Shown: one piece after another, positions 11,495 to 43,189 of the stretch
Layout of the letters: the number at the start of each line of letters is the position of its first letter
How positions within the stretch are numbered: position 1 is the stretch's first letter
NCBI GenBank assembly: GCA_902801425.1
Contig: CADCIQ010000011.1
Coordinates: forward strand, 1-43,754
Source: an uncultured Bacteroidales bacterium
Lineage (GTDB): Bacteria; Bacteroidota; Bacteroidia; Bacteroidales; Bacteroidaceae
Length of the DNA stretch: 43,754 bases
Direction: 5' to 3'
Made by a program: the position numbers and the translations under genes
Notes under the pieces: generated by a model
Databases searched by the model: none
What the model saw: the letters and a program-made list of their open reading frames with translations, nothing else
Told to the model about the DNA's origin: nothing

Positions 11495-11529
11495 AGCCCC
11501 TCACCTGCCCGTAGGGCAGGTGAGGGGCT
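11495..11529. terminator. Bidirectional hairpin between convergent genes
   Basis: AGCCCCTCACCTGCCC, loop GTA, then the perfect 16-base complement. A further GGTGAGGGGCTGCT follows at 11532-11545. The outer sequence is the same as the arm tips of the type B palindromes elsewhere in the window, so this looks like a collapsed type B element that now separates the lipase gene from the minus-strand HhH gene. Confidence 0.7.
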
Positions 11530-14212: not shown

Positions 14213-14728
14213 ATGTTCATAGCAAAAAAAATAAAGAATTATCCATTGTCATCACTATTGGTGGTGGCTATCTGGGTGGTGTGTTTGATTCCTGTTCCTG
14301 AGACTCCGCTCAACGATGTATGTTTTATTGATAAGTGGACGCATTTCGTTATGTATGGGTCGCTTACAACGGTAATTTGGTTTGAGTACTTGTGGAAGAA
14401 GAGGCCCCTCACCCGTCACTGCGTGACACCCTCTCCCCAAGGGGCGAGGGGGGAAGTATGTAATGGACCTTTAACGAAAAACAATGAGCAAGAAATGGTA
14501 ACTTCTTCCTCGCCCCTTGGGGAGAGGATGCCCAAAGGGCAGGTGAGGGGCCACTTACTTCTCGGCGGTGTCCTCTGTCCTATCATTATGGGCGGTCTCA
14601 TCGAGCTTGCACAGGCTTATCTCACTACCTGCCGCTCTGGTGACTTCTTTGATTTTGTATGCAACTCCATGGGAGTACTTTTAGGCTGCTTGGTAGGTCT
14701 TATCTTGAAAGCCATACTTCGGGGTTAA
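14213..14728 (+). CDS. VanZ-like membrane protein carrying an in-frame palindromic repeat insertion
   Basis: 171 residues, against about 120 expected for Bacteroidota VanZ-like proteins. Four membrane segments are visible (about 13-27, 43-59, 116-134, 151-168), with DKWTHFVMYGSLT (40-52) and AQAYLTTCRSGDFFDFVCNSMG (from 133) as the family core. Residues about 65-114 (PLTRHCVTPSPQGARGE ... PLGERMPKGQVRGH) are encoded by a 150-bp type B repeat lying between segments 2 and 3. The repeat is exactly 50 codons, so the frame is kept; it should form a charged loop at the membrane face. The function of this VanZ subgroup is unknown; the namesake gives low-level teicoplanin resistance. Its 3' end overlaps the convergent M23 gene by 29 bp. 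Confidence 0.8.
   Translation: MFIAKKIKNYPLSSLLVVAIWVVCLIPVPETPLNDVCFIDKWTHFVMYGSLTTVIWFEYLWKKRPLTRHCVTPSPQGARGEVCNGPLTKNNEQEMVTSSSPLGERMPKGQVRGHLLLGGVLCPIIMGGLIELAQAYLTTCRSGDFFDFVCNSMGVLLGCLVGLILKAILRG
14403..14552. repeat. Type B paired palindrome inside the VanZ-like gene
   Basis: Left arm 14403-14457 begins GGCCCCTCACCCGTCACT, holds a GTCACTGCGTGAC hairpin and CTCTCCCCAAGGGGCGAG. Right arm 14501-14552 is its inverted partner, ending GGCAGGTGAGGGGCC. The 43-bp centre is unrelated to other copies. Other members are at 26237-26384 and 40993-41202, solo arms at 38434-38485 and 11495-11545. Length is 150 bp, a multiple of three. Confidence 0.75.
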
Positions 14729-16376
14729 GTTTGTCACGCTCCCTACGTAACTGGAACTGAAGAATATTATCTCGTCCAACCGTGCCAAGTGTCTGGCGGG
14801 TTGATACCTTCTGTCCCTTTGATACGCTTACACTCTTCAGATTACAATAAACAGAAATATATGCACCGTGGCGCACAAGTACGCCCATGGTGCCTCCTGC
14901 ATCAAATACTGCTGAAACCTCACCGTCATAGATTGCACGTGCGGCACAACCCTGTGAGCCGAGTATGTTGATACCCTTATTGTCAAGTACTACGCCAGGA
15001 AGTCCCTCTACGCCGTGTTGTCCGAAATGACTTACAATCCTACCACCTGCAACTGGTGAAGGCAGACGACCCTTGTTTGCCTCAAAGCCACCGCTTACAA
15101 GTCGGTCAGCACTACTCAGGCGTACAGCCTCTTCTGACTCTTTCTTAGCCTTTGCAACCTCCATGTTGGCACGTTCCTTATCTACAACAGCCTTACGTTC
15201 TGCGGCAATACGTGCAGCCTCTGCCTCGCGAGCACGTTGCTCAGCCACTTCCCTTGCCCTTGCATTGCGAGCTGCCACGGCATCAGCCTTTGCCTTTTGT
15301 TCAGCAGCCTTTGCCTCTTCAATCCTACGTTGGTTTTCACGTTCCGCAGCCTCTGCCTCTGCCTTCTTACGAGCAAGAGCCTCCGCCTTACGCTTGGCTG
15401 CCTCTTCCTCCTCCGCTTTCTTCTTAGCCTCGGCAATGGCACGCTGACGAGCACGCTCCACTTCCTCTGCAACCAACTGGTCAATCTTAGCGTTGAGGGC
15501 AGCGTCTTTCTTTTTCTGCTCGTCAATAATGTTCTGTATGGTCTTCTGCTGTTTCTGAAGTGAGGTAACAACCTTCTGTTGTTCTTCCTTCTGACCTTCA
15601 AGTGCAGCATGTTCTTTCTTACCCTTCCAAAGAAGGTTAGACTTCACGCCACGTGCAGCCTTCAACTGCTCATTCTTCTCATTCACACGTTGTTGCTGTT
15701 CCTGAACAGCCTTACCCTGAGTACGCTGATATGCAGCATACTCACGCATGAAGCGCATACGGCGGTATATCTGGCTAAAGTCGTTGCCTGAGAACACGAA
15801 CATCATCTGACTCTGTATGCTGCGACGCTTTGCCATATAGCGCATTGACTTGACATACTGCGCCTTACGAGCCTCCAGCTGTGCATTGAGCGTGTTGAGC
15901 TGTGAGTTGAGTATGCCGATGTCACCGTCAAGCAGATGTATGTCGTGATTGATTGAGTCAATGCTATGGCGACGGCGATCCATCTCTCCATTGATCACCA
16001 TAAGGTCTTTGAGCTTCTTCTCTACCTGCGCCTTGTTAGCACGCAGAGCCTTCTCCTGCTTTGCGATGTTCTTCTTGATCTCATCACGCTGTTTCTTCAG
16101 GCTATTGATGCTATTGCTCTCGCTATTCTTCTTTGAGGATGCCTTCTTGCCAGTTGTAACCTTACCTGTATTTGCCTTTCCCGATGATTTCTTTTTGGTA
16201 GTCACCGCTGTCTTCTGCGCTGATTTCTTCTGCTTAGACTGAGAGTAAACCGAAGGGGTGAAGAGGAGGAGGGCAAAGAATAGGAGAATGACCATCAACA
16301 GCGGCCTCTCCCCCCGCCCTCCCCCGTAGGGAGGGAGCCGGAATGCCCATGAGAGAATATTGAATGTTTTATTCAT
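14700..16376 (-). CDS. EnvC-like M23-family protein with long coiled coil, probable amidase activator
   Basis: 558 residues from the ATG at 16376 (574 from 16424, 531 from 16295). A signal sequence (hydrophobic VILLFFALLLFTPSVYSQ) precedes a Lys-rich linker, a coiled coil of about 300 residues rich in Ala, Glu and Lys, and a C-terminal M23 (LytM) domain. The domain lacks the zinc ligands of active enzymes: GINILGS replaces HxGxD, VYCNL replaces YxHL and LQFQLR replaces LHFEL. Such degenerate LytM proteins (EnvC in E. coli) activate cell-wall amidases at division. It is third in an operon with TPR and DUF4292 genes. The start region lies in a type A repeat, which adds [14 protein letters not shown] before the hydrophobic core, so the true start is uncertain. 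Its 3' end overlaps the VanZ-like gene by 29 bp. Confidence 0.88.
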   Translation of the reverse strand: MNKTFNILSWAFRLPPYGGGRGERPLLMVILLFFALLLFTPSVYSQSKQKKSAQKTAVTTKKKSSGKANTGKVTTGKKASSKKNSESNSINSLKKQRDEIKKNIAKQEKALRANKAQVEKKLKDLMVINGEMDRRRHSIDSINHDIHLLDGDIGILNSQLNTLNAQLEARKAQYVKSMRYMAKRRSIQSQMMFVFSGNDFSQIYRRMRFMREYAAYQRTQGKAVQEQQQRVNEKNEQLKAARGVKSNLLWKGKKEHAALEGQKEEQQKVVTSLQKQQKTIQNIIDEQKKKDAALNAKIDQLVAEEVERARQRAIAEAKKKAEEEEAAKRKAEALARKKAEAEAAERENQRRIEEAKAAEQKAKADAVAARNARAREVAEQRAREAEAARIAAERKAVVDKERANMEVAKAKKESEEAVRLSSADRLVSGGFEANKGRLPSPVAGGRIVSHFGQHGVEGLPGVVLDNKGINILGSQGCAARAIYDGEVSAVFDAGGTMGVLVRHGAYISVYCNLKSVSVSKGQKVSTRQTLGTVGRDNILQFQLRRERDKLNPEVWLSR

Positions 16377-16515
16377 TATTACAATAAAAGCCTTTTCCTT
16401 GTTAGAAGATAAAAGGCGAAGCAATTATTCTTGTGTTATTATATTAGTTACTTAATTATGATTAGCCTTTCGCGCTCCGGCTTCCTCCCTACGGGGGAGG
16501 GCGGGGGGAGAGGCC
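16303..16515. repeat. Type A paired palindrome at the 5' end of the M23 gene
   Basis: Left arm starts GGCCTCTCCCCCCGCC with an internal CCCTCCC-ccgta-GGGAGGG hairpin and ends GCCGGAATGCCCA; right arm (to 16515) is its inverted partner with inner edge GCCTTTCGCGCTCCGGC. The two inner edges differ from each other, so the element has an orientation; here it is opposite to the copies at 20441-20576 and 27768-27900. The 120-bp centre is longer than in those (under 45 bp) and contains two candidate start codons of the M23 gene. Confidence 0.75.
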
Positions 16516-26236: not shown

Positions 26237-26384
26237 AGCCCCTCACTTGCCCTTCGGGCATCCTCTCCCCAAGGGGCGAGGAAAAAGTTACATTTATTGC
26301 TATTGGAACTTTCTTTAGAGGGTTCTTTACTAATATATCCCTCGCCCCTTGGGGAGAGGGTGCCCATAGGGCGGGTGAGGGGCT
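26237..26384. repeat. Type B paired palindrome between murC and ftsQ
   Basis: Left arm begins AGCCCCTCACTTGCCCTTCG, with CTCTCCCCAAGGGGCGAGG; right arm CTCGCCCCTTGGGGAGAGG ... GGGTGAGGGGCT ends 2 bp from the murC stop. The left edge is 19 bp from the ftsQ start. The centre is about 50 bp. Confidence 0.8.
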
Positions 26385-40992: not shown

Positions 40993-41202
40993 AGCCCCTC
41001 ACCCGCCCTTCGGGTACCCTCTCCCCAAGGGGCGAGGGGGAAGTTAGTAATTTCTGATAATAAAAATCATTGATTTGGTATTGATCCAAAAGGATAGCAA
41101 CAAAAAGAAAATTGTGAATAATCGATTCCTACATAGCGTTAAAAACTATCTTTTCCCTCGCCCTAAGGGGAGAGGGTGTCACGTAGTGACGGGTGAGGGG
41201 CC
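40993..41202. repeat. Type B paired palindrome at the 5' end of the Ig-like lipoprotein gene
   Basis: Left arm 40993-41043 starts AGCCCCTCACCCGCCCTTCG; right arm 41155-41202 has CTCGCCCTAAGGGGAGAGG, GTCACGTAGTGAC and GGGTGAGGGGCC. The centre is about 110 bp. The first base lies next to the GH3 stop and the last next to codons for the hydrophobic core of the lipoprotein signal peptide, so all candidate start codons of that gene are inside the element. Confidence 0.75.
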
Positions 41203-43189
41203 GCTGTTCTTTTTTCTTGCCTTTCTCCTTCTCTTCACTTCCTGTGCTCGTATGGGCAATCCTGATGGCGGCTGGTTTGACGAGACTCCTCCGCGTGTTG
41301 TGAGTGCCTCTCCTGTTGATAAAGGCACAAACTGCAAGAGCAGCAAGGTGATAATCAATTTTGATGAGTATATCAAACTTGAGAATGCGAGTGAGAAGGT
41401 TGTTGTCTCTCCTCCTCAGCATGAACAGCCAGAGATAAAGGCGGCTGGAAAGAGAATCATCGTTGAACTAAAGGATTCACTCAAGGAAAACACTACCTAT
41501 ACCGTGGATTTCTCGGATGCTATTACCGATAACAACGAGGGAAATCCTCTTGGCAACTACACTTATAGTTTCTCCACAGGTGATCAGATTGATACGCTTG
41601 AGGTTTCAGGTACGGTACTCACAGCCGATAATCTTGAGCCTGTCAAGGGAACGCTCGTTGGTCTCTATCGCCTTACAGAGAGTCAGTTGGAAGGTTTTGC
41701 CATCGGTATGCCTGTCAATTCTTTTGATTCTATATTCGTTAAAGAGCCATTTGTACGTGTGGCAAGAACTGACTCACGAGGCAGGTTCGTTATCCGTGGT
41801 ATTGCCCCAGGCTCATATCGTGTCGTAGCTCTTACTGATATGGACGGTAATTTCATGTATTCACAGGCGGCAGAGGCTTTTGCATATAACTATGACTTGA
41901 TAGTGCCAAGTTGTGCGCCTGATCTGCGACAGGATACTATCTGGGCAGATACTATCCATATTCGTGACATCAGACAAGTGCCTTACACACACTTCCGTCC
42001 AGACAATATCGTGCTCCGTCAGTTTGTCAAGGAACAGGTTGATCGCTTTTTCCTGAAGGTAGAGAGAAAAGAGGCTAATATGTTCCAGATTTTCTTTAGT
42101 GGTCCAAGCACTTTGATGCCTCAGATCAAGGGACAAAACTTCGATGAAACCGATGCTTTTGTAGTGGAACATACTCCAAAACTCGACACTCTTACCTATT
42201 GGATAAAGGATTCTGCTCTTATTGATAATGATACGCTTAGGATTGATCTGACATACGATGCTACTGATAGTCTCGGTAATCTTGTGGTTCGGACAGACTC
42301 CGCTGTTGAAATCCTCTCAAAGCAGCCATACGAAAAGCGTATGAAGCAGTTGAAGAAGGATATAGAGGAATGGGAAAAGAAACTGGCAAAGAAACGTAGG
42401 CGTGGCGAGGAGGTAACAGATACCATCTTCCCGGCAAAGCCTCTTGAACCTAAGTATGAGATCAGCCAGCAGATGGCACCTGATCAGAGCATATATATCA
42501 ATATGCCGACTCCTATTCAAAGGATTGATACAGCAGCTATTCATCTCTATATAAAGCAAGACGATAAATGGTATAATGACCGTTTCGTGCTTCGTCAAAG
42601 ACAGTCGGAGAACGCTACCTCTCGCAATCTTGAGATAATAGCTGAATGGCGTGAGGGGGCAGAGTATAGTTTCGAGGTTGATACCCTTGCCTTTGAGGAT
42701 ATTTATGGAAGGAAGTCTCACCCTTACAAGACTGGTATCAAGGTTAGGGGAACAGATGAGTTCAGTTCACTTTTCGTTAAGCCTCACTATCCTGGATCTG
42801 ACACCCTTGCTATTGTCGTGCAGATGCTTGACAAGAGCGAAAAGGTGTTGAAACAAGCCCTTACGGTCGATGGAACCGCAGAATTTTACTATGTAAAGCC
42901 AGGTGATTATTACCTTCGTGCATTCATAGACAAAAACAAGAATGGCAAGTGGGATACAGGTAATTTTGACGAAGACCTGCAACCAGAAGAGGTGTATTAT
43001 TATCATGAGAAGGTTACCTGTCGCGAGAAGTGGGATGTCACACGCGACTGGAATCTCCTTTCTCGTCCTCTCGACAAGCAGAAGCCAAGCGAGATCGTCA
43101 AGCAGAAGGCTGATAAGGCAAAGACTATCAAGCAACGTAATGCTGAGCGTGCTCGTGAAAAGGGTATCAGGGCACCAGAAAGCTATTAA
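41075..43189 (+). CDS. SbsA-type Ig-like domain lipoprotein
   Basis: 704 residues from a TTG at 41075; GTG 41186 would give 667. The lipobox FLLLFTSC makes residue 57 of the long form (20 of the short form) the lipidated cysteine. An Ig-like (Big_5) domain follows: DETPPRVVSASPVDKGTNC ... IINFDEYIKLEN ... TTYTVDFSDAITDNNEGN. A carboxypeptidase-regulatory-like domain comes next (VSGTVLTADNLEPVKGTLVGLY, GRFVIRGIAPGSYRVVALTD), and a second such stretch near the end (YVKPGDYYLRAFIDKNKNGKWDTG). A Lys/Glu-rich helix lies at about 425-450. Probably an outer-membrane or surface protein; role unknown. Its start lies inside a type B repeat, and the n-region YLFPRPKGRG comes from the repeat. It is followed by a DUF3108 gene, a pairing common in Bacteroidales. 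Confidence 0.85.
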   Translation: MVLIQKDSNKKKIVNNRFLHSVKNYLFPRPKGRGCHVVTGEGPLFFFLAFLLLFTSCARMGNPDGGWFDETPPRVVSASPVDKGTNCKSSKVIINFDEYIKLENASEKVVVSPPQHEQPEIKAAGKRIIVELKDSLKENTTYTVDFSDAITDNNEGNPLGNYTYSFSTGDQIDTLEVSGTVLTADNLEPVKGTLVGLYRLTESQLEGFAIGMPVNSFDSIFVKEPFVRVARTDSRGRFVIRGIAPGSYRVVALTDMDGNFMYSQAAEAFAYNYDLIVPSCAPDLRQDTIWADTIHIRDIRQVPYTHFRPDNIVLRQFVKEQVDRFFLKVERKEANMFQIFFSGPSTLMPQIKGQNFDETDAFVVEHTPKLDTLTYWIKDSALIDNDTLRIDLTYDATDSLGNLVVRTDSAVEILSKQPYEKRMKQLKKDIEEWEKKLAKKRRRGEEVTDTIFPAKPLEPKYEISQQMAPDQSIYINMPTPIQRIDTAAIHLYIKQDDKWYNDRFVLRQRQSENATSRNLEIIAEWREGAEYSFEVDTLAFEDIYGRKSHPYKTGIKVRGTDEFSSLFVKPHYPGSDTLAIVVQMLDKSEKVLKQALTVDGTAEFYYVKPGDYYLRAFIDKNKNGKWDTGNFDEDLQPEEVYYYHEKVTCREKWDVTRDWNLLSRPLDKQKPSEIVKQKADKAKTIKQRNAERAREKGIRAPESY

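Follow-up and report, generated by a model that had tools for sequence, protein, structure and literature searches.

An in-frame paired palindrome, probably tolerated as a translated loop, in a VanZ-like gene of an uncultured Bacteroidales bacterium

The window analysed here, a stretch of 43,754 nt, is the whole of contig C11 of the draft genome of a Bacteroidales bacterium related to Prevotella (G000; 3.93 Mb in 185 contigs, 86.5% complete with 6% contamination). An open reading frame of 171 amino acids on its forward strand matched the Pfam family VanZ (PF04892) with an E value of 2e-6 and 28.9 bits, just under the 30.1 cut-off. This frame contains a 150-nt paired palindrome, called type B here (GGCCCCTCACCC...GGTGAGGGGCC), which is read as residues 64 to 114 or thereabouts. 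The gene, the parts of the palindrome and the other type B elements of the window are as follows.

14213..14728, + strand: VanZ-like membrane protein ORF, 171 aa, with the palindrome in frame
14403..14552, + strand: type B paired palindrome, 150 nt, 50 codons, between EYLWKK and LLLGGVLCP
14403..14413, + strand: left half of the outer stem (11 bp), pairing with 14542-14552 in the RNA fold
14415..14427, + strand: left-arm hairpin of the RNA fold; its stem sequence differs among copies
14430..14454, + strand: left half of the central stem (25 bp), pairing with 14503-14527; holds the arm core CCTCTCCCCAAGGGGCGAGG
14455..14502, + strand: inter-arm spacer, which varies among the copies of the genome
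14529..14541, + strand: right-arm hairpin of the RNA fold
26237..26384, unstranded: second type B element, outside recognised genes
40993..41199, unstranded: third type B element, degenerate; its right arm enters the N-terminus of a lipoprotein-like ORF (41051-43189)

A first-pass annotation of this DNA had claimed that the palindrome lies in frame and adds 50 residues to the protein, and this was borne out: among the six frames of the 150-nt copy, the used frame alone is free of stops. It had also claimed that the protein would have about 121 residues without the insert, the normal size. The length of 121 aa stands, and it is slightly short rather than normal, as most relatives have 127-144 aa (lengths that rest on our own choice of ORF starts) and the sister with an empty site has 130 aa. 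A few residues of the native loop have probably gone as well. The placement of the insert between membrane segments 2 and 3 was upheld in part. Only three hydrophobic segments were above the cut-off (residues 10-28, 115-133 and 151-169), and a second membrane segment is assumed by analogy with the family.

Several neighbouring features of the window were recorded. The ORF at 14700-16424 on the reverse strand overlaps the end of the VanZ-like gene and has a type A-like stretch of 24 residues in its N-terminal region, followed by a signal-like stretch. In the lipoprotein-like ORF at 41051-43189 (+ strand), the signal peptide starts directly after the type B arm (CHVVTGEGPLFFFLAFLLLFTSC), and similar-looking ORFs were found by eye elsewhere in the genome (C54:24082, C27:5057 and C20:42070). 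A 35-nt near-perfect palindrome at 11495-11529 (AGCCCCTCACCTGCCCGTAGGGCAGGTGAGGGGCT) resembles the joined ends of a collapsed type B element.

The RNA fold of the window copy consists of an 11-bp outer stem, one hairpin per arm and a 25-bp central stem. Its minimum free energy was -90.4 kcal/mol, compared with a mean of -52.4 for shuffled sequences (z -9.46), and none of 200 shuffles folded as well. When 30 copies were written out, the ends and the arm hairpins were common to nearly all of them and the spacer was not. The arms are about 48 nt each, form two stem-loops and mostly end in GCCCCTCACC, which was present at the left end in 28 of the 30 copies; CGTC occurs within many left arms and is not terminal. 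The element has the features of the REPIN type, namely an inverted pair of short palindromes, a variable spacer and a high copy number.

Arm cores were found 82 times in forward and 80 times in reverse orientation in the genome when up to 3 mismatches were allowed (control, 0), which corresponds to a copy number of about 80. The stretches fetched around the listed matches held 68 complete pairs and 17 single arms; the 68 complete copies are those among the matches listed, in which later contigs are under-represented. A further 400 kb of the genome was made up of stretches without listed type B matches, a biased sample from which no density was derived. The identity of each type B copy to its best paralogue had a median of 84% and a maximum of 92%. 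The notion that type B copies might lack stops in all frames, which the first-pass annotation had raised, failed: 61 of 408 frames were open over the 68 copies, and 27 copies had no open frame at all.

Palindromes were also observed at gene ends and within one another. At C12:15217, C60:11666 and C31:9661, type B begins at the end of a gene and supplies a short C-terminal tail (e.g., RPLTRPTDTLSPKGEG), and type A tails of 12 residues are present on Maf-like and CbiD-like ORFs, both named by eye. A nested hairpin of 31-33 nt (AGTCCGATGTTGATAACATCGGAGTATGTG, up to 5 substitutions) occurred 16 times in the examined loci, two of these being one place in overlapping loci. It was always inside a type A or type B arm, at a near-constant point, and its loci include C4, C12, C18, C41 and C59 of this genome and L107, L241, L247 and L252. 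In the RluA-like gene, the nested hairpin is in frame in the sister genome G145; the sister G144 has, in the opposite arm, a variant that keeps the tail and differs in the stem.

Eight of the 68 complete type B copies lie inside or join recognised ORFs with long protein on both sides, and all eight are in frame and open, having been picked by openness in this genome, a choice that makes in-frame copies easier to spot than disrupting ones. The other 60 are not inside a recognised ORF that continues on both sides. The eight genes are the following.

VanZ-like
MurF-Alr: Mur ligase and Ala racemase domains found
Fkp, 960 aa: end-to-end match to the solved FKP structure 5yys
RsmF-like: type A inserts too; N-terminal domain matched in two stretches
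RluA-like: more inserts present; synthase domain matched in two stretches
GSCFA
CobU-CobT: genes fused through the element
GT1-GT2: genes fused through the element; second arm within GT2

In Fkp and GSCFA, the gain in length over the relative or profile was smaller than the element, which suggests a loss of native residues there too. A ninth open type B copy (C7:26681) has 88 and 86 codons on its two sides and no recognised protein. Another 16 same-strand rows showed a frame change or a stop within the element; 13 of them were read, and none showed one gene split in two. One type B copy seemingly truncates the end of a gene that we take to be of the 4-alpha-glucanotransferase-like family. Open frames were inspected because a coding-signal score in 90-nt windows beside the 68 copies was too weak; a self-BLAST scan for inverted repeats, which missed known elements, was dropped. 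For types A and C, 186 and 46 candidates were counted at first look and 40 of each were scored; examination of 24 places for type A and 19 for type C revealed no clear internal in-frame insertion in a recognised protein. The type A and C inserts that were counted are those in RsmF, TatD and RluA. An unidentified open frame surrounds one type A place (C40:1975) with 213 and 48 codons, and a RimM-like protein (named by eye) has a type C arm in its N-terminus.

The VanZ-like gene was present in 31 of 60 genomes, including this one. A short loop was found at the insertion site in 28 of the 29 other aligned loci (27 from the same genus, 2 from the same order); the exception, G027, has a different insert at the same place, made of 21-28-nt tandem repeats. 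Five more genomes were reached through loci of metagenome-assembled genomes (MAGs), and the VanZ-like gene was recovered from four of them. G148 (RUG12352) and G144 (RUG14400) carry the same type B element in frame, G147 carries a diverged palindrome in frame, and the site of G145 is empty. Counted from the same start, the proteins have 174 aa in G148, 175 aa in G144, 174 aa in G147 and 130 aa in G145, compared with 171 aa in the genome studied here. G148 is very likely the same genome as G095 of the genus, the coordinates being identical. In the sister G144, an AT-rich palindrome-like insertion (L238, 1635-1764) alters the C-terminus of the VanZ-like protein.

The first-pass annotation had suggested that orthologues be compared for an empty site with a target duplication, and had regarded the same loop in all relatives as evidence against insertion. 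Empty sites were indeed found, and the loop is not common to all relatives: 28 of the 29 aligned loci and one of the four sister genomes are without it. The expected target duplication was not found at the VanZ site, where the diverged junction of the empty sister leaves none to be read. Elsewhere, near-clean empty counterparts were found for two insertions, one of type A and the other of type C, with no clear common duplication; by eye, one type C insertion had TATA on both sides and one type A insertion had no clear duplication.

Other genic sites also differed between species. CobU-CobT is one ORF in G145 as well, and G144, G147 and G148 have a CobU ORF that ends unfused. At site 3 of RsmF, five genomes have, by translation, a type B element, a type A element, another type A element, a longer type B element and an unrelated sequence, and none of these is present in G001 and G021. 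Where the MurF gene of the genome studied here holds one element nested within the ends of a second, that of RUG14400 has a short in-frame scar (ACAGGTGAGGGGCT). In a sister, two non-genic copies were reduced to about one arm. The elements therefore also shrink by deletion between the arms.

Flank-to-flank lengths of the elements were compared between this genome and its relatives. For seven genic copies the differences were multiples of three in 18 of 18 comparisons, versus 7 of 19 for non-genic copies (Fisher p 3.7e-5); comparisons within the same gene are not independent, and among distinct non-zero differences the figures were 12 of 12 and 5 of 17 (p 1.2e-4). The test left out L237 (a duplicate of L238), three sisters with an unfused CobU (differences of 2, -3 and -27) and two signal-peptide cases (12 and -34). 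Pooled dN/dS was 0.85 in the inserts (382 codons, 8 pairs; 10.5 synonymous and 26.5 non-synonymous changes) as against 0.13 over 3449 codons of the host genes; the insert value is a point estimate and comes mainly from two VanZ pairs (23.5 of the 26.5 non-synonymous changes). GSCFA is absent from this count, its orthologue having been missed by the motif. Judged from these sequence comparisons, the reading frame is under selection and the added peptide apparently is not.

We consider it probable (about 0.85) that the window copy is a high-copy, REPIN/MITE-like, non-autonomous paired palindrome that is tolerated as a translated loop. The element came to sit in the loop between membrane segments two and three of the VanZ-like protein, presumably carried there at the DNA level by a trans-acting transposase, and it would be translated as about 50 hydrophilic, probably unstructured residues. 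The positive-inside rule would place this loop in the cytoplasm. The mRNA would remain unprocessed and the VanZ-like protein functional. Surviving genic copies would be those whose length and frame allow the ribosome to read through, and selection would keep the frame open and be indifferent to the added peptide, the element being tolerated and not used by the protein.

An element that is excised after transcription, as an intron is, or skipped by the ribosome would leave the protein normal and be silent itself. The RNA fold is very stable and might hinder the ribosome, and bypassed hairpin elements exist in some mitochondria. Removal would, however, free the element from keeping the frame and avoiding stops, yet all 18 genic length differences were multiples of three and the eight genic copies have no stops in the used frame, which makes removal or skipping very unlikely. 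It is also rather unlikely, if somewhat less so, that the loop has been adopted and that its residues serve the protein in binding, regulation or topology. The same loops have been refilled in several species, sometimes with unrelated sequence (VanZ in G147 and G027, RsmF site 3 in five genomes), as an adopted loop might be; refilling is equally expected of a loop that is merely permissive, and the insert dN/dS of about 0.85, the different peptides of the orthologues and the close sister without an insert speak against a role for the residues. An artefact of assembly or binning would come to mind for a draft in 185 contigs, repeats being hard for assemblers. The insertions are nevertheless found at orthologous places in separately named assemblies, several of them with a locus-specific spacer, and we regard an artefact as extremely improbable. 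Toleration of a translated element remains our preferred reading.

The inserts differed far less between species than the genes around them, with a dS of 0.037 compared with 0.524 for the host genes. The insert, spacer included, was 98.6-100% identical between species in six of nine ortholog pairs, a count that left out the diverged palindrome of G147 and the nested 33-nt hairpin. These pairs are RluA-like (two sisters; e.g., 138/138 nt), CobU-CobT (144/146), Fkp and RsmF site 1 (two sisters), and in the four pairs read base by base the flanking gene sequence was back to its normal frequency of mismatches within about 25 bp outside the insert. Identity was lower in VanZ (135/148 and 128/148) and GSCFA (128/146), showing that the effect is not uniform. 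Non-genic copies ranged from identical (C6:36978, 175/175, with the left flank also identical over 92 bp) to clearly diverged. The presence of inserts was in conflict between genes: G145 has the RluA and CobU-CobT inserts in common with G000 and is empty at VanZ, and G148 shares the VanZ insert and neither the RluA nor the CobU-CobT insert. Homing-like transfer between co-resident species or a strong constraint at the DNA level would explain near-identical inserts in diverged genes, and replacement of the flanks by recombination may be added to these candidates. It is a tentative and rather doubtful idea that something beyond simple descent might hold palindromes at particular protein loops.

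Within the genus, the arm core (up to 2 mismatches) was present in 15 of 120 genomes including this one; it was dense in G000, less frequent in G095 and of a variant form in G028. A scan of named genomes returned at least 111 stretches, and 80 loci were used for comparison, for the length test and for reading insertions. Five MAGs account for 33 of the 80 listed loci: RUG14400, RUG12352, RUG14644 and two metaWRAP bins, all with a Bacteroidales or Prevotellaceae label. Matches of at least 250 bases between MAG loci and stretches of this genome numbered 50, the long ones having about 80-95% identity. The remaining 47 listed loci are from many phyla. Outside the five MAGs, a GGTGAGGGGC-like end followed 43 of 49 cores (core CCTCGCCCCTTGGGGAGAGG), an inverted partner lay within 260 nt of 3 of the 49, and the inner hairpin was often absent or different; single-arm examples were found in Desulfobacterales, Pseudomonas, Variovorax, Enterobacter and Monoglobus records. 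The single-arm design is widespread, and dense pairing with in-frame copies was seen in the one lineage examined for them. Some single arms among L103-L182 are in long open frames, such as those of L103 (Phenylobacterium) and L173 (Gastranaerophilales). A scan of a viral collection gave a single arm core, on one contig (L062, 3599-3619 of 13,062 bases).

A Y1 transposase was sought as the mobiliser and was found in 7 of 8 genomes searched, two of which are probably one genome. It could not be linked to the element: no type A or B arms were present in the fetched stretches beside the nine distinct Y1_Tnp loci, in genomes that are mostly drafts and from which the gene may be missing. At one Y1 locus (L259), a type C-like core is about 330 bp from the gene. 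The sole Y1 transposase found in the genome studied here (L061, on C159) is flanked by inverted GTACACAAAAGGGACGGTTCC repeats and not by the palindromes described here. The search of Y1 transposases identified no insertion sequence with the ends of the element (GGCCCCTCACC).

The closest parallel is with the Rickettsia palindromic elements (RPEs). In the excerpts available of the review PMC10969869 and of PMC3733652, these are palindromes of about 150 bp that are in frame in unrelated genes, the host proteins apparently still being made. The element described here is likewise a palindrome of roughly 100-150 bp inserted in frame in unrelated genes, as in 8 of the 68 type B copies. It differs from the RPEs of those excerpts in that most copies are outside recognised genes, two gene fusions run through the element and several palindromes occur in one gene. 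The host differs too: it belongs to the Bacteroidota and has about 4 Mb of DNA in its genome, and its sister genomes are labelled Bacteroidales or Prevotellaceae, not Rickettsiales. RPE-like persistence inside genes, which had been proposed from the letters of the window, gained support from the eight in-frame copies, the filled and empty orthologous sites and the conservation of frame between species. By this analogy, the view that the element works like an RPE is supported; the likeness is one of behaviour.

Excerpts of other papers describe further families with which the element has traits in common. GTAG/CGTC REPs are given there as palindromic units of 20-40 bp with a terminal GTAG or CGTC, often dimeric and intragenic in several species, with CGTC repeats from Bacteroidetes (PMC3733652). 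The element resembles them as far as palindromic repeats inside genes are concerned; no GTAG or CGTC tetranucleotide terminating a 20-40-bp unit was found, the left end being GCCCCTCACC in 28 of 30 copies. REPINs are described in the excerpted text as REP doublets that form hairpins, are extragenic and are linked to an adjacent RAYT gene (PMC3116915). Two inverted repeats with a spacer, dispersal, a single-hairpin fold and lack of autonomy are shared with that description, whereas no type A or B arm was beside the nine Y1-transposase loci examined. With neither RAYT linkage nor the terminal tetranucleotide found, the element is filed under neither REPIN/RAYT nor GTAG/CGTC REPs. Bacterial MITEs, as far as the available parts of PMC10969869 and PMC2229807 describe them, are non-autonomous, have inverted repeats and are sometimes fused in frame with genes. 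The element shares with them the lack of autonomy, the inverted ends and the in-frame gene fusions; it differs from that account in that no insertion sequence with the same ends was among the Y1 transposases searched and that there was no clear target duplication. Since intragenic REPs are known in several groups according to the excerpt of PMC3733652, the element is a variation on a known theme. No paper on in-frame palindromes in Prevotella was found among the open-licence PMC papers searched.

These observations place translated palindromic loops in the core enzymes of a non-Rickettsiales bacterium, backed by filled and empty sites and by the frame test. They indicate that palindromes can fuse neighbouring genes into one reading frame and that the fillings of the same loop differ between species. 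Annotators should be aware that some of the unusual loops and tails of this lineage's proteins are repeat DNA. The question raised by Rickettsia, whether such elements create new parts of proteins, can now be tested in many more genomes.
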